Both the position numbers and the translations under genes were made by a program. Below are positions 12,721 through 31,515 of a DNA stretch of 64,000 bases, piece by piece. Below the pieces are notes generated by a model. It was not told the origin of the DNA. It saw only the letters and a program-made list of their open reading frames with translations, and searched no databases. The DNA comes from Patescibacteria group bacterium (GTDB taxonomy: Bacteria > Patescibacteriota > Patescibacteriia > Patescibacteriales > Patescibacteriaceae). Where the stretch lies: positions 424,506 to 488,505 of the forward strand of contig CP129471.1 of assembly GCA_030583705.1 (NCBI GenBank), written 5' to 3'. Positions within the stretch are counted from its first letter, which is position 1, and every line of letters starts with the position of its first letter.

Positions 12721-13452
12721 ATGAAAAAAGCTATTTTTACCTTAGTGCAAAATGAAAAATTTTTCTTGCCTATTTGGCTTAAATATTACAGTCGCTACTT
12801 TGCTCCAGAGGATATCTATATTTTAGATCATAATACTTCGGATGGCAGTACAGACAACCTTAAAGCCAAAGTAATTAAATTAGACTACCCCGGCTTTTTT
12901 GATCATCTTTGGATGAATCAGACAGTTAAAGATTTCCAAAAAAAACTTTTAAATGATTATGATGTTGTTGTTTTTGTTGAGGCTGATGAAATTCTAGCCT
13001 CTGTTAAAGAGCCTGACTTTGCGAAAGCCATAGATGAAGAAATAAAAGATAAAGACTATCTACCAGCCAGGGGTTTTGAGATTATAGACAAAGAAAGGTC
13101 TCCCCTACTACCCGGTAAAATCATTGCTCAAAAACATTTCGGTATTTGGGAAAAATTATATAATAAAAATTTAATCAGCAAAGTAGCTCTTGATTGGGGC
13201 ATGGGGTTTCATGCGCTTGATACAACAGAGGCGGAAAATTCAAACTTCGTTTTAATACATCTTCACAGAGTTGATTATCAAGAATATATAAAAAGAAAAC
13301 TCAATTTTGCCAAAAAAGAAAAGACCAAAGAACATCGTTGGTGGGGTTGGCAAAACAAATTAGAGAAAGAAAAAGATATAATAAAATATTTTAAAAAAGA
13401 TGACAAAAACTTAATAAAGATTCCCCAGGAAATAAGAAGAATAGATTTGTAA
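12721..13452 (+). CDS. Glycosyltransferase family 2-like protein
   Basis: 243 residues. It begins with the Rossmann-like MKKAIFTLVQNEKFFLPIWL, typical of GT2 relatives that open with a TLVQNE or LVRNE strand. ILDHNTSDGSTDN at about 39-51 is the nucleotide-binding loop and VVVFVEADEIL near 79-89 the DxD-like metal site (EADE). The C-terminal third has HLHRVDYQEYIKRKLNF and is rich in Lys and Trp. The acceptor is unknown. No membrane segment is visible, so it acts in the cytoplasm or at the inner membrane face. Confidence 0.83.
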   Translation: MKKAIFTLVQNEKFFLPIWLKYYSRYFAPEDIYILDHNTSDGSTDNLKAKVIKLDYPGFFDHLWMNQTVKDFQKKLLNDYDVVVFVEADEILASVKEPDFAKAIDEEIKDKDYLPARGFEIIDKERSPLLPGKIIAQKHFGIWEKLYNKNLISKVALDWGMGFHALDTTEAENSNFVLIHLHRVDYQEYIKRKLNFAKKEKTKEHRWWGWQNKLEKEKDIIKYFKKDDKNLIKIPQEIRRIDL

Positions 13453-13498
13453 GAAAAAATCTCTTTAAATACCTTTAGCCTTATATAACAAAAGACCC

Positions 13499-13527
13499 TT
13501 GACACCTTTTTCATCTTGCGCTATAAT
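13499..13527 (+). promoter_or_regulatory. Perfect consensus promoter of the acidic micro-gene
   Basis: TTGACA (13499-13504), 17-bp spacer, TATAAT (13522-13527). Transcription would start near 13534 and give an RNA of about 200 nt ending at the hairpin 13710-13735. Confidence 0.85.
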
Positions 13528-13577
13528 TTAACCATATTAAGCTTGCTTAATATCGCTAATTCATAAAGAATAACATT

Positions 13578-13700
13578 ATGTTCATGGAAGAAATGAATGA
13601 CGACATGAACACCGATGAAATGGGTGAAGAAACCAATGACGACACTGTAAGTGACGACATGGGTGATGAAACCGATGAAGCCGGTGAAGACGTCCTCTAA
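13578..13700 (+). CDS. Very acidic 40-residue protein
   Basis: The frame runs from ATG at 13578 to TAA at 13698-13700 and encodes 40 residues. 18 of the 40 are Asp or Glu, and there is no Lys, Arg or His at all. It has an internal repeat: DDM..MGEETNDD is echoed by DDMGDETDEAGED, also visible at DNA level (TGACGACATG twice, ATGGGTGA twice). Asp is mostly GAC (7 of 10), unlike the GAT-rich neighbours, which may reflect high expression or another origin. It sits in a complete unit with a perfect promoter and an 11-bp terminator hairpin. No Shine-Dalgarno is visible; starts at 13584 or 13593 are possible. The transcript could also be a structured RNA. Function unknown. Confidence 0.65.
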   Translation: MFMEEMNDDMNTDEMGEETNDDTVSDDMGDETDEAGEDVL

Positions 13701-13709
13701 GCAAACTTC

Positions 13710-13735
13710 AAAAGAGCTCCTTACGGAGCTCTTTT
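13710..13735 (+). terminator. Intrinsic terminator of the acidic micro-gene
   Basis: Perfect 11-bp arms AAAAGAGCTCC (13710-13720) and GGAGCTCTTTT (13725-13735) around loop TTAC, followed by GTTTTTG. It starts 10 nt after the stop codon. Confidence 0.9.
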
Positions 13736-13864
13736 GTTTTTGTTATTTTTTGGTTTGATTATATTATTTCTTATTTTAGTCAGAAGATGAAAATCAGCTA
13801 GTTTTATAGATAATATAAAGTAAATAATATAATATTAAAAAGAAGAAATTATAAAAATTTCAAA

Positions 13865-14713
13865 TTAGTTACCCGTATTTTCTTTCAAACAACTATTATA
13901 CCGTCTGGCTGAAGCGTTATATCTATCCATAATCTCCTTAGTTTGTTTAACATATTGATTAAACAAATCAGCAGTAGCGTTATATTCCTTAACTCTAGTA
14001 TTATATGGCTCTCCATACTTAGGTTCTGTTTCCTCAAGAGCACGCTTTTTCTCTTGTAATTCAACTTCTAGTCTTTCCATCTCCTTTTTATTTCTTTCAA
14101 TCAATAACTCATCGTTTTTATCCGGTCCGGGACAGACAGAAGAAGGTAAGCCAAATTCTTGGACAATTAACCAGGTTTTTTTATCCTCAAAATTGCCTTC
14201 CCCAAAAGCTATACCAATTTCCGAATAAAAAGGGTTCATAATATTCGCTCGGTGACCTGGATTATTCATCCAACCATCTACTAGCTCTTGATCGTTTTTA
14301 AAATTACCTAAAGCTAAGTTTTCTCCCACCGACAAGAAATCATAATCAACTTTTTTAGCCAAATCTCCAGGGCCATCCCCCTTTAAGGAAATATGTTCAA
14401 AGTACTGATACTCAAACATATCCTCTACTTTCAACTTAGCCGCCTCATTAAGTTTTGGCGAAAGAGTTAAAGGCGAGAGTCCTTCTTTTGCTCTATGTTT
14501 ATTAGATTCAGCCATAATCCCCTCTACTGTAAAGTAAGAATTAACAATTTCTTGCCGGTCAAGACGCAAGGGTTCAAGCATCTGACCCACTGAACTGCTA
14601 CTTTCCCCGGAAAAGATGTTTTCCTCAGACCAAGGAGAAGTGCCACTCCCCCACCACCAAAAGAAAACCAGGCCAGCTAAGAATAAAATAACTAATATTA
14701 GCTTTATTTTCAT
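13865..14713 (-). CDS. CAP (SCP/PR1/YkwD) domain protein with C-terminal coiled coil
   Basis: 282 residues. An N-terminal TM or signal segment at about 3-21 (ILVILFLAGLVFFWWW), then a CAP domain at about 65-195: NKHRAKEGLSPLTLSPKLN, the conserved FEHIS, GENLALG, and WMNNPGHRANIMNPFYSEIG. The final ~80 residues form a charged coiled coil (ELLIERNKKEMERLEVEL and on) ending near NTGN. Bacterial YkwD-like proteins are extracellular; proposed roles range from wall binding to hydrolysis and are unsettled. It is divergent from the GerMN gene, with overlapping promoters. Confidence 0.88.
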   Translation of the reverse strand: MKIKLILVILFLAGLVFFWWWGSGTSPWSEENIFSGESSSSVGQMLEPLRLDRQEIVNSYFTVEGIMAESNKHRAKEGLSPLTLSPKLNEAAKLKVEDMFEYQYFEHISLKGDGPGDLAKKVDYDFLSVGENLALGNFKNDQELVDGWMNNPGHRANIMNPFYSEIGIAFGEGNFEDKKTWLIVQEFGLPSSVCPGPDKNDELLIERNKKEMERLEVELQEKKRALEETEPKYGEPYNTRVKEYNATADLFNQYVKQTKEIMDRYNASARRYNSCLKENTGN

Positions 14714-21804: not shown

Positions 21805-21833
21805 TTGACAATATATGATATATATGATATAAT
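21805..21833 (+). promoter_or_regulatory. Perfect consensus promoter without a downstream gene
   Basis: TTGACA (21805-21810), 17-bp spacer, TATAAT (21828-21833), plus extended -10 TGa (21825-21827). It points away from lysS into the hairpin at 21866-21897. Confidence 0.8.
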
Positions 21834-21839
21834 TAATAT

Positions 21840-21897
21840 TATAGGTTTTTTAGAGATTGTTAAATAAAAACACCGATCTTAATAGATCGGTGTTTTT
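21840..21897 (+). ncRNA. Candidate ~58-nt small RNA
   Basis: Inferred from a perfect promoter whose predicted start is near 21840 and a strong terminator ending at 21897. The RNA would have about 26 unpaired A/U-rich nucleotides and a 14-bp hairpin. No start codon lies in it. It is complementary to the 3' end of the greA message. There is no other evidence that it is made. Confidence 0.45.
21866..21897 (-). terminator. Intrinsic terminator of greA, symmetric
   Basis: AAAAACACCGATCT (21866-21879), loop TAAT, AGATCGGTGTTTTT (21884-21897). A and T tracts on both sides let it work in either direction: for greA on the - strand and for the short + transcript from 21805-21833. Confidence 0.88.
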
Positions 21898-21951
21898 ATT
21901 TATGTTCGCAATAACTGTTTTTTATCCTTTATCCTTCTTAATTAATCTTAA

Positions 21952-22553: not shown

Positions 22554-23579
22554 TTATTGCCCTGCCTGATAAAGAGCCTTTACTTCTTGTGAAGAAAGTA
22601 CTCTGTTGTATAGCATAACATCATCAATTGAACCGTTAAACCAACGTTCTGTGCCAGTTGCCCAGACGCCTATGGCTCCCAGCCTCCCGTCAATATAAGT
22701 ACCCAAACCAACCGATTCATAACCAACAACACCATTAACGTACATTTTATAATGTTTTGAAGCACTCTCAAAAGTTAAAGCTACATGATTCCATGCGGGA
22801 TCAGCATTAAGAGGTGGCGTCGTAACAATTCTCCATGTTTGTCCATCGTACAGGCGAAAAGTTGCAAGATGAGTTGAAATGTAAGCTAAAGCTCCTCCGC
22901 CCGATACGATATTATGAAGATTTGCAACATTTGGTCTTCTTATCCAAGCCGAAAGAGTAAAGTTGGGATAAGTATTTGCTCCGGCAATTGTAATATAATC
23001 ATTTGTCCCGTTAAAAACACCAGAAAAATTTCCAAATTTAGCATTATTTGTATATCTTGAACCACTACCCACCCAGTTACCGGTCTTACCTCCCACAATA
23101 TCAAGAACAGAGCCGCCTGATCCTTCTTCAAAATTATAATATTGAACCAGACCACCATTAAGTCCCGAGGGGCTCATAAAATAATATCCTTTATTTAAGT
23201 TATCAAAACCTTTATCCAAACAAAAACTTATAGCATAATCATTACCGGAAGAAGTGTAATAGTAATCATAACTGCCGCAAATACCTCCTGAATCATTAGA
23301 AGGATTTTCAGGAACTTTAGACATATATACAACTGTGCCATCTGTTAATTGTCCTCCGGTTGTTATAGATGAAGGATATTCGTTATTATTAGCATAATAC
23401 AATTCCAAAGCATTAGCTAAAGATTTTAAATCACTAACCCTCTTAGCATCTCTTGCCCCAGCTCGTGAATTACCTAAAGCTACTACGACCAAAGTAGACA
23501 ATACTCCTATGATAGCTATAACGACTAACAGTTCTATTAAGGTAAAAGCTCTTTTGTTTTTTCTATTTATTAAAATCAT
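22554..23579 (-). CDS. Type IV pilin-like protein with LamG domain (copy 1)
   Basis: 341 residues. Class III prepilin signal: basic leader MILINRKNKRA cleaved before FTLIELLVVIAIIGVLS, with Ala rather than Gly at -1. An amphipathic stalk follows (DLKSLANALELYYANNNEYP), then a short conserved region with MSKVPENPSND and two cysteines, and from about 144 a laminin-G-like (concanavalin fold) domain starting LVQYYNFEEGSG and ending IDDVMLYNRVLSSQEVKALY. LamG domains often bind sugars or proteins. The gene ends the tandem set of three, 8 bp after copy 2. Likely a surface-exposed minor pilin or adhesin (inference). Confidence 0.88.
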   Translation of the reverse strand: MILINRKNKRAFTLIELLVVIAIIGVLSTLVVVALGNSRAGARDAKRVSDLKSLANALELYYANNNEYPSSITTGGQLTDGTVVYMSKVPENPSNDSGGICGSYDYYYTSSGNDYAISFCLDKGFDNLNKGYYFMSPSGLNGGLVQYYNFEEGSGGSVLDIVGGKTGNWVGSGSRYTNNAKFGNFSGVFNGTNDYITIAGANTYPNFTLSAWIRRPNVANLHNIVSGGGALAYISTHLATFRLYDGQTWRIVTTPPLNADPAWNHVALTFESASKHYKMYVNGVVGYESVGLGTYIDGRLGAIGVWATGTERWFNGSIDDVMLYNRVLSSQEVKALYQAGQ

Positions 23580-23587
23580 ATAAGCAG

Positions 23588-24679
23588 TTACTGACCCAGC
23601 GCATAAAGCATCTGAATTTCTTCCAAAGAAAGTACCCTATTATATATTCGGTAATCATCCATGCGACCGTAAAGACCATGTCCTCCTCCAGTGCTATAAG
23701 CATTTACAATTTTAACATGACTTGTATCTGGAAAAAGCGTTTCACTATGAAGATTAACTGTATTAACATGAACTCCGTCTTTGTAGATAGAAGCTTTTTT
23801 AGCAATCCAGTCTGTGGTGATAACATAGTGGTTCCAAGAATTTAAAGAGATACAAGAAGAACACAATGTAGAGCCAGTGTATGATGAATTTGTTCTATGC
23901 TGAATAATAAGACTACTCGAAGAATTATTTCCAAAAAGCCACACATAAGGATTTGGCCCTTGATAACTTGAACCAAATAAAGAAAAATGACCATCACTTG
24001 ACCCTGTCCTATAAGCCCACATGGCAAAGGTTAGTTGTTGGTTGGGACTTGTAAAAACTTTACCCGTGGGAGTATAAGCTCTAGCTGAACTGCCGGGGAA
24101 ACTAATACAGCCACCAACTCGGCAATCGGTTGAAGGTAGCCAGGCGTGGTTAATGCCGGTAAGGTTCCAGCCTGAAGAAGAATGATCAGTGGCGGTTGAA
24201 CCAGATGTTTCATCAAATTTCCACCAAGCAATAAGGCCAACATTGTTAAGACCTTCTGAGGTAACAGTGTGAACTCCTGAAGCCAGAGATGGGGTATCTG
24301 AACCTAAACAAAAACCTATAACATAAGATTGCCCTGATTGAGCTTGTGAATAAAGATAATCACTATCTGGGCAATTACCATCTGTGTGAGGAGTTGGATT
24401 ATTGGGTACCTTACTCATGTAGACTATTCCACCAGCTTCTAAGGGCTGTCCAGGAGAAAAATTAGCTGCTTGGGGGTATGAGTTATTATTTGCATAATAC
24501 AGCTCTAGGGCATTAGCCATGGCTTTTAGATCATTTAATCTTTTAGAATCTCTAGCTTTAGCTCTTGAATCGCCTAGAGACACTATAACTAGAGTGGATA
24601 ATACACCAATGATAGCTATAACTACTAATAGTTCTATTAGAGTAAAGGCTTTTTTGTTTTTTCTATTTATTAAAATCAT
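23588..24679 (-). CDS. Type IV pilin-like protein with LamG domain (copy 2)
   Basis: 363 residues. The leader MILINRKNKKA before FTLIELLVVIAIIGVLS is nearly identical to copy 1, including the DNA just upstream of the start. Pilin stalk at about 12-65, conserved MSKVPNNPTPHTDGNCPDSD near 89-108, then a LamG domain from about 150 (LIAWWKFDETSGSTATDHSS) to the end (MDDYRIYNRVLSLEEIQMLY). Four cysteines in the LamG part (DCRVGGC, LCSSC) could form disulfides outside the cell; copies 1 and 3 lack them. Confidence 0.88.
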   Translation of the reverse strand: MILINRKNKKAFTLIELLVVIAIIGVLSTLVIVSLGDSRAKARDSKRLNDLKAMANALELYYANNNSYPQAANFSPGQPLEAGGIVYMSKVPNNPTPHTDGNCPDSDYLYSQAQSGQSYVIGFCLGSDTPSLASGVHTVTSEGLNNVGLIAWWKFDETSGSTATDHSSSGWNLTGINHAWLPSTDCRVGGCISFPGSSARAYTPTGKVFTSPNQQLTFAMWAYRTGSSDGHFSLFGSSYQGPNPYVWLFGNNSSSSLIIQHRTNSSYTGSTLCSSCISLNSWNHYVITTDWIAKKASIYKDGVHVNTVNLHSETLFPDTSHVKIVNAYSTGGGHGLYGRMDDYRIYNRVLSLEEIQMLYALGQ

Positions 24680-24687
24680 ATAAAGAA

Positions 24688-25746
24688 TTATTGCCCCGCC
24701 ATATAAAGAGCCTGTATTTCCATATCTGTAAGCGGCCTATTGTATATTCTCACATCATCTATTAATCCGTTAAAAAATTGTGCTGGTGTACCACCATCAT
24801 TATGAGCACCAATATAAGTATTTAAGGGCCCGCTGATTAAAGGTGCTGAAGCGTTAGTTAAAGTATTGGTTAAATTACCGTTAATATAGACTTTTACCGT
24901 ATTCCCTTTTTGAGTTAAAGCTAGATGAAACCAGTTACCGGCACTAATCGCCGTAGATGAATTAGCGTCAGTAAAGGTTGTACCATTACTAGTATACGAG
25001 CCAAACCAAGTAGCGCTTGAGTTAAAAGCAGATAAAACAAAAGCAGAAGAAGCGCCAGCTCTCGAAAAAGACATTACCCTACCCCTGGTAGTGTAATTGG
25101 TAACATTAGACCTTGCCCAAGCAGCAAAAGTCAGTTGCTGAGAGCCGGTAATATTCTGAAAGGTATTATTAAGATTCACAAAGTCACTCGTACCATTTAA
25201 AGAAATAGCTTGCCCAATAACCCCCGGAGCATACGTTCCACCAGTTAAGGTTCCATGATTATTTTGACCAGACTTATCCAAAACATCATTTTCAAAATCC
25301 CACCACCCGACCAAGCCGGCATTCCCAACTCCGTAATCGGTTGAAGCTGTATGAACACCGGCAGATAAGGATCCATTATTCGAACCAAGGCAAAAACCCA
25401 AGGAATAAGAAGTTCCAGCCCCATCAAGTGCATAAGAATAATCTTTATTAGGGCAATTTCCATCCGTTCTTGGAGTGGGATTTTCCGGCACCTTACTCAT
25501 GTAAACTATATCATTAGCTTCAAGAGGGTCCCCAAAAACTAACGACGGAGGATATTCGTTATTATTTTCGTAATAAAGCTCTAAAGCATTGATCATTAAC
25601 CTTACATCATTCAGTCTTTTAGAATCCCTAGCCTTAGCTCTTGAATCGCCTAGAGACACTATGACTAAAGTAGATAATATACCTATGATAGCTATAACTA
25701 CCAATAATTCTATTAGGGTAAAAGCTTTTTTATTTTTAGTAATCAT
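24688..25746 (-). CDS. Type IV pilin-like protein with LamG domain (copy 3)
   Basis: 352 residues from the ATG at 25746 (MITKNKKA before FTLIELLVV); a start 18 bp further up is possible but would lengthen the leader. The first ~45 codons of the pilin part are almost identical in DNA to copy 2. Conserved block MSKVPENPTPRTDGNCPNKD, then LamG from about 143 (LVGWWDFENDVLDKSGQNNH) to DDVRIYNRPLTDMEIQALY. First gene of the tandem set; an extended -10 TGtTATAAT lies on the - strand at 25813-25805. Confidence 0.88.
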   Translation of the reverse strand: MITKNKKAFTLIELLVVIAIIGILSTLVIVSLGDSRAKARDSKRLNDVRLMINALELYYENNNEYPPSLVFGDPLEANDIVYMSKVPENPTPRTDGNCPNKDYSYALDGAGTSYSLGFCLGSNNGSLSAGVHTASTDYGVGNAGLVGWWDFENDVLDKSGQNNHGTLTGGTYAPGVIGQAISLNGTSDFVNLNNTFQNITGSQQLTFAAWARSNVTNYTTRGRVMSFSRAGASSAFVLSAFNSSATWFGSYTSNGTTFTDANSSTAISAGNWFHLALTQKGNTVKVYINGNLTNTLTNASAPLISGPLNTYIGAHNDGGTPAQFFNGLIDDVRIYNRPLTDMEIQALYMAGQ

Positions 25747-25820
25747 AGTACTATATTTATCCATTTTTTTTATTTTATAACCAGATAATTATTTATCTTC
25801 TCTTATTATAACAAAAAAAG

Positions 25821-30418: not shown

Positions 30419-31483
30419 TTATTGCGCAAATCTAATTAAAGATATTTCTTGGGCAGATAAAGATCTATTGTAAATACGGACTTCATCCATGTAACCATTG
30501 AATTGTCTAAAAAGTAAATTACCAAACTGACTATCGCTGACATTGTGATTATTAAAAATTTGATTATTTCCAATCATTTGTCCGTTAACCCAAAACTCCA
30601 AATTATCACCTCTTTTAACTCCAGCAACATGATACCAAGTATCAAGCGTGGAAAAAGTTGAAGTAGTGGCACAAGAGCCTGCCCAATAAGTCCAAGCAGA
30701 GCAACCGGGCCAAGTAGCTTCTTGAATCATATAAAGAAATCTTATATTGTCTACATCCCAATCTCCTCTATAACGAAAACGGTAAAGCCCATTATTAATT
30801 AAATCAACGGAAGCTTGCCAAGCTATGGGTCTTATCCAAAAAGCAACAGTAAGATTTTCGGTAATTCTTAAAGAATTATCATTCCCAACATTTACGTTTT
30901 GAGTGGATGAAGTAAACCTTAAACAAGAACCAATGCGACATTCATTCTCAGGCTGCCAAGTAACTCCAGCACTTAGGGTTCCATTATTTCCGTTACCAGA
31001 ACTATCTTGAGTATTAAGACCAGATCCTTCTTCAAACTTCCAAAAACCAACCAAAGATGGATCTATGGGTCCACTTGAAGAAAGAACAACAGTACCTGAT
31101 TCTGATGAGCTAGAAGCAGAGCCTAAACAATAATGAATTACATAATCTTGTTGATTATCCAATGGGGTATAGCTGTATTCTTCATTTGGGCAATCACCAT
31201 CTGTCCTAGGTGTTGGATTATTTGGCACCTTGCTAATATAAACTATATCATTGGCTTCTAGGGGTTGTCCCGGAGTAAGAGATGAAGGATATTGATTATT
31301 ATCTGCATAATAAAGCTCTAAAGCATTAACTATTGATCTTGCATCGTTTAATCTTTTAGAATCTCTAGCCTTAAATCTTGAATTACCTAAAGCCACTATG
31401 GCCAAGGTTGAAAGAGTACCTATAATAGCTATTACTACAAGGAGTTCTATAAGAGTAAAAGCTTTGGGGATATTTTTAGACAT
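30419..31483 (-). CDS. Type IV pilin-like protein with LamG domain (copy 4)
   Basis: 354 residues from the ATG at 31483 (MSKNIPKA before FTLIELLVVIAIIGTLS); a start 18 bp upstream would overlong the leader. Stalk with SIVNALELYYADNNQYP, the shared MSK-like ISKVPNNPTPRTDGDCPNEE, and LamG from about 144 (LVGFWKFEEGSGLNTQDSSG) to MDEVRIYNRSLSAQEISLI. Cysteines in ECRIGSCLRF and PGCSAWTYWAGSC could pair. It lies between secY and adk, two genes that are adjacent in most bacteria, behind the secY terminator. Confidence 0.88.
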   Translation of the reverse strand: MSKNIPKAFTLIELLVVIAIIGTLSTLAIVALGNSRFKARDSKRLNDARSIVNALELYYADNNQYPSSLTPGQPLEANDIVYISKVPNNPTPRTDGDCPNEEYSYTPLDNQQDYVIHYCLGSASSSSESGTVVLSSSGPIDPSLVGFWKFEEGSGLNTQDSSGNGNNGTLSAGVTWQPENECRIGSCLRFTSSTQNVNVGNDNSLRITENLTVAFWIRPIAWQASVDLINNGLYRFRYRGDWDVDNIRFLYMIQEATWPGCSAWTYWAGSCATTSTFSTLDTWYHVAGVKRGDNLEFWVNGQMIGNNQIFNNHNVSDSQFGNLLFRQFNGYMDEVRIYNRSLSAQEISLIRFAQ

Positions 31484-31515
31484 AAGATTATTATAACACA
31501 AAAAATCTATATATT

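Follow-up and report, generated by a model that had tools for sequence, protein, structure and literature searches.

A probably highly expressed gene for an acidic, predicted disordered microprotein in a Falkowbacteria-like bacterium

Structure of the locus

The DNA analysed here, a window of 64,000 nucleotides, belongs to a genome that consists of a single contig of 869,590 bases, is 95% complete and has a G+C content of 37% (868.5 kb were read). The host is a very small, Falkowbacteria-like bacterium of the candidate phyla radiation. Between a gene for a glycosyltransferase-2-like protein (12721..13452, + strand) and a convergent gene for a CAP-domain protein (13865..14713, - strand), the window contains a compact unit to which neither neighbour belongs. 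The glycosyltransferase-2-like gene was found only in this genome among 13 of the family, and the CAP gene is a syntenic anchor shared by all four genomes of the genus. The unit begins with a sigma-70-type promoter, TTGACA-17-TATAAT (13499..13527, +), which a sequence scan found to be perfect at 12 of 12 positions, as the original prediction had claimed. Transcription is predicted to start at about 13534, leaving a leader of 44 nt (13534..13577, +; about 45 nt had been estimated) without a Shine-Dalgarno motif. Folding places a hairpin at the predicted +1 (ATATTAAGCTTGCTTAATAT; 13534..13553, +), which was absent from that earlier description and probably serves as a 5' stabiliser of the transcript. 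The following ORF of 40 codons (13578..13700, +) encodes MFMEEMNDDMNTDEMGEETNDDTVSDDMGDETDEAGEDVL, an acidic and predicted disordered microprotein with 18 Asp or Glu and no Lys or Arg residues, the composition that had been read from it at the outset. Its internal repeats, also noticed then, are two 30-nt copies (13614..13643 and 13653..13682, +) that agree at 24 of 30 positions, and its Asp codons are indeed rich in GAC (7 of 10, versus 25% genome-wide; the share in the ribosomal and elongation-factor genes of the window is 34%). An intrinsic terminator, located by hairpin search and folding (13709..13745, +), closes the unit. The hairpin had been announced correctly, but not its dimensions: it has 12 rather than 11 bp (13709-13736, followed by a T-rich tail) and starts 9 rather than 10 nt past the stop codon. 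The transcript carries hairpins near both predicted ends, the leader hairpin at the 5' and the terminator at the 3' end.

A leader without a Shine-Dalgarno motif is normal here, because the motif was also missing from all 25 other leaders inspected in the window, including those of ribosomal and housekeeping genes. The 3' end of the 16S rRNA keeps CCTCC despite these leaders, and start sites in the window are simply AT-rich. Elsewhere in the window, on the - strand, four genes judged by eye (22554-25764 and 30419-31501) combine type IV pilin-like N-terminal signals with LamG-like C-terminal parts, and three of them lie in tandem.

Composition and promoter quality

When the intergenic region (13453-13864) was shuffled 3000 times with dinucleotides preserved, no ORF of at least 30 aa with no Lys or Arg and at least 40% acidic residues arose; the best shuffled ORF reached 19% acid. 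In a composition scan of the own genome that stopped ~1.1 kb short of its end, only the micro-gene, among about 6000 ORFs of 25-150 aa, combined an acidic share of 28% or more with a basic share of 8% or less. Perfect promoters with spacers of 16-18 nt number 20 in the 868.5 kb, versus none or one in five whole-genome shuffles, and several of the others lie near genes resembling rpsB, rpsM, rpmA, nusG, and typA (names assigned by reading N-termini by eye, without a database). Given the rarity of perfect promoters in shuffled DNA and the place of several others near genes of translation and transcription, the promoter of the micro-gene is a meaningful indication that expression is strong. It is of housekeeping grade, and the micro-gene is probably strongly expressed, which is still a prediction. 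As far as sequence can tell, this supports the initial description of a micro-gene that stands alone, is strongly transcribed and encodes an all-acidic protein.

The same perfect TTGACA-17-TATAAT promoter also occurs in the window at 21805-21900 (+), between lysS and greA, and a hairpin-T terminator (ACACCGATCTTAATAGATCGGTGT) follows after about 40 nt. This unit has no gene on its strand and may possibly specify an orphan RNA of ~60 nt. Another perfect promoter of the own genome (G000:C1:603429, +) is followed within ~40 nt by a hairpin (GAGCCCTCGGGCTC), with no obvious gene.

Homologues in related genomes

A synteny search in relatives had been proposed together with the original prediction. 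With the CAP gene as an independent anchor and a composition scan, a tiny acidic ORF (41-51 aa, 0-1 basic residues) was found at the same place, beside the CAP gene, in each of the other three genus members sampled (G003, MSDELTLDDGVTMDGDADEEEEGGAGIGDDAGDDEGEEESEDSLV; G002, MTDELNVNPVSMNDGDEENDETLGEEEENTDADLVADEEDEADEEDAEEAI; G001, MMIDEVTMNDDDMDTSTEEPEEKEESMTPEMPEEGGSEDEL). The start of the G001 copy, which contains one Lys, was placed at an internal ATG; the longest ORF there has a basic N-terminal extension. In these three genomes the gene order is micro-gene, DedA gene and convergent CAP gene, whereas the window has the micro-gene and the CAP gene without DedA, for which its genome shows no match. 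According to the translations, G003 and the window further share C39 peptidase-DUF305-DUF1761 genes on one side and Gmad2-GSDH genes on the other. The closest named relative with a shared locus is UBA2355 (Candidatus Falkowbacteria; L189), which carries the G003 ORF. In G002 and G003, a gene for a protein of 289-306 aa that could be assigned to no family (L184:8857-9777 and L185:8462-9331) lies divergent from the micro-gene; in the window it does not have this place. Two members of another genus of the family, g6, carry acidic ORFs of 55 (G008) and 62 aa (G011) near parA/parB, and these loci were also brought in through short DNA matches to the query. The g6 genes could be convergent rather than orthologous, since they are located elsewhere.

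The reading frame is unbroken in all six homologous loci while the DNA has diverged widely, and no locus combines a retained promoter and hairpin with a broken frame (0/6). An automatic scan detected a TTGAC[ACG]-17-TANNNT promoter upstream in five of the six; the sixth, TTGACT-17-TAACAT in G001, was recognized by eye in a longer sequence, as the 110-nt stretch scanned ended inside the promoter. Leader hairpins occur in all six loci, each of a different sequence, and so do 3' hairpins, of which the one in G003 has no clear T-run. A check for conserved codons with synonymous change had likewise been suggested. In the closest pair of homologues, G008 and G011, the ORFs differ at 7, 6, and 19 first, second, and third codon positions, respectively; this third-position excess (p = 0.002 against equal rates) comes from one pair, the only close one. 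GAC makes up 59-80% of the Asp codons in all six micro-genes, compared with backgrounds of 19-47%, and the excess reaches significance (0.05) for the window, G002, G001, and G011, but not for G003 and G008.

Distribution

The micro-gene is present in all four genomes of the genus and in both g6 genomes. Composition scans of nearly the entire G006 genome, a 99% complete member of the family, and of the whole of G062 (same order) revealed no such acidic ORF. Owing to this patchy distribution, the micro-gene is not a core function. In a g5 genome, G007, a related DedA gene has no acidic ORF beside it. A CAP profile applied to named genomes with similar filters gave 80 loci (838 kb) with two copies of the micro-gene, both from known members of the genus. 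A protein search of 98 genomes with the 40-aa query matched only the query itself, and this failure is a limit of the method because synteny and composition did find homologues. The best foreign DNA match to the query (G002:C5) was rejected, being mainly a similarity of terminators. A profile of the homologues (A1) added no further genera in the order and class (111 and 381 genomes); this profile missed G011, one of its own source members, so that absence by profile is weak evidence. As far as this incomplete sampling goes, the micro-gene seems confined to part of one family.

The part of G005 that was scanned contains no micro-gene homologue and has a different acidic ORF instead (L288:15040-15222), directly upstream of a VirD4/TraG-like ATPase gene. 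Like the micro-gene, this ORF has a small Asp/Glu-rich product and a TTGACA-like promoter, and it comes from the same bacterial family. Unlike the micro-gene, it is Asp-Trp-rich with some basic residues, has a GGAGG-type ribosome-binding site and lies among other neighbours. It probably represents a different family.

Properties of the predicted protein

The protein encoded in the window has no Pfam match above cut-off and no match in NCBIfam, PADLOC, or PHROG. Charge-hydropathy analysis predicts disorder for all six homologues, and AlphaFold2, run on the single sequence, predicts no secondary structure (pLDDT 63, pTM 0.12). The microprotein is thus predicted to be intrinsically disordered. 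Net charge per residue stays between -0.42 and -0.53 across the six while the sequence drifts. Over a short stretch the N-termini within the genus resemble each other (MxDE[LV], later [TS]M[ND][DG][DG]); this likeness is weaker in the window copy (MFMEEMND), and behind it comes an acidic tail that drifts freely. With six intact frames and, in one pair, a third-position bias, the micro-gene very probably does encode such a protein, a disordered polyanionic microprotein. The comparative support for a genuine microprotein gene is strong. No description of the family was found in the literature searched, and to our knowledge it is unnamed. Intrinsically disordered microproteins as a class (reviewed in PMC13276856) resemble it in being very short, disordered, lineage-restricted, and unannotated; the present case differs in being all-acidic and in having a housekeeping-grade promoter. 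In that review the word "acidic" appears three times, but never for an acidic bacterial microprotein.

Possible functions

The overall explanation, to which we assign a probability of roughly one half, combines a real monocistronic gene, probably highly expressed, for a disordered polyanionic microprotein whose position is fixed in the genus with a proposed action through charge. A strong promoter and hairpin-protected mRNA ends would provide many copies of the microprotein, which would stay unfolded and act by virtue of its charge; its N-terminal segment may serve for docking. It might bind the positively charged surfaces of nucleic-acid-binding proteins, such as RNA polymerase, ribosomal proteins, or nucleoid proteins, and either compete nucleic acid off these basic proteins or keep them soluble as an anti-aggregation counter-ion. 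Selection on charge, shortness and the apparent expression level fit a polyanion that acts by electrostatics. Prothymosin-alpha-like acidic chaperones, which are eukaryotic, disordered, all-acidic, and abundant and bind basic proteins, offer a parallel, but they are longer and have no sequence relation to the microprotein, and the resemblance is of kind only. The action envisaged would be like that of the acidic C-terminal region of the delta subunit (RpoE) of RNA polymerase in Bacillus, but performed by a free protein in trans. The delta region is disordered, comprises 83 aa with a net charge of -47 and, supplied as a free peptide in excess and lacking its anchor, can strip RNA polymerase of nucleic acid (PMC7749165). 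Its charge density is similar to that of the microprotein (40 aa, -18), in which charge-hydropathy and AlphaFold2 likewise indicate a disordered, strongly acidic region. In contrast to B. subtilis RpoE, the gene of the microprotein is free-standing and lacks the anchoring HARE-HTH domain (PF05066; no Pfam match). By analogy with delta, polyanion competition or chaperoning of basic proteins is offered as a tentative mode of action. Our confidence in the mechanism class is moderate; in any particular target it is low.

Cation buffering is a serious rival to this polyanion reading, although we regard it as unlikely. A flexible, Asp/Glu-rich chain in high copy number could bind Ca2+, Mg2+, other cations, or polyamines, and the microprotein, with 45% acidic residues, no aromatic core, no Cys, and high predicted expression, would suit this role; selection on charge rather than sequence would also look alike. 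However, the protein belongs to no EF-hand or other metal-site family according to the Pfam and NCBIfam searches, no metal transporter was identified adjoining the micro-gene, and the N-terminal resemblance among genus members is nothing that a buffer would require.

Proteins that mimic DNA, counter defence systems, or act as antitoxins, among them those of the Ocr, ArdA, and DinI type, are typically extremely acidic. It is nevertheless distinctly unlikely that the microprotein is an antitoxin, an anti-defence protein, or a folded inhibitor that mimics DNA or histones. A folded acidic surface is at odds with the AlphaFold2 prediction from the single sequence, 40 aa are short for a folded mimic, and the searches gave no Pfam match above cut-off and none in PADLOC or PHROG. 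Moreover, no toxin, restriction, or phage genes were identified among the neighbours in three contexts: the gene is monocistronic and lies near glycosyltransferase, CAP, and DedA or parA/parB genes, with no adjacent toxin as in type II systems. Of the functions listed in the original prediction (mimic, tail-like binder, metal buffer, inhibitor), the folded mimic is thus weakened. The case for an antitoxin paired with a toxin gene next door, or for attenuation of a neighbouring gene, loses ground as well.

A more specific form of the delta analogy would be a split subunit, in which some ultra-small bacteria make the polyanionic tail, which recycles RNA polymerase in Firmicutes, as a separate, very abundant protein of 40-60 aa acting in trans, and the HARE-HTH domain resides on a sigma-like protein. 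This arrangement seems improbable. HARE-HTH matches do occur in each of the four genus members, and the three copies that were read there have no acidic tail. Proteins of ~400 aa in which a sigma region 4-like part is fused with HARE-HTH repeats lie at L288:12232-13437 and on L290, L292, and L293; a protein of this architecture was also seen by eye in G005, to which L288 belongs and which has no micro-gene homologue in the part scanned.

The structured RNA that the original prediction named as its alternative, a stable small RNA (sRNA or dual-function) in which the ORF would be incidental or secondary, is very improbable. The transcript does fold strongly (z = -5.3) and has hairpins near both ends, and promoter and terminator make a tight unit, but the terminator supplies part of the fold energy, and the ORF is intact and acidic in six of six loci, yet the leader sequences and hairpins differ. 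Conserved synteny and the concentration of the G008/G011 changes at third codon positions also disfavour an RNA. At the gathering threshold, Rfam matched nothing in the window, and no match was convincing at the five related loci, where only tRNAs reach the cut-off. Protein is much the better reading, because of the intact frames, the third-position bias, the GAC excess, and the lack of an Rfam match. Least probable of all is control of the downstream DedA gene by a leader peptide or attenuator: DedA does follow the micro-gene on the same strand in three genus members, ~60-115 bp on and past the 3' hairpin, but it has its own -10-like TATACT there (three of three relatives, by eye), the window keeps the micro-gene, promoter, and terminator with DedA missing and only the convergent CAP gene downstream, and the g6 gene has unrelated neighbours.

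Implications

Ordinary annotation does not see a gene of such small size and biased composition, and sequence search hardly does: all relatives escaped the single query, and one of the source members escaped the profile. Within a genome of just 870 kb, its promoter has a quality otherwise found near ribosomal and transcription genes. The conservation pattern suggests a disordered microprotein whose charge and position are held by selection while its sequence changes. Its gene product is a concrete, testable candidate for a polyanion present in abundance in a reduced bacterial cell.
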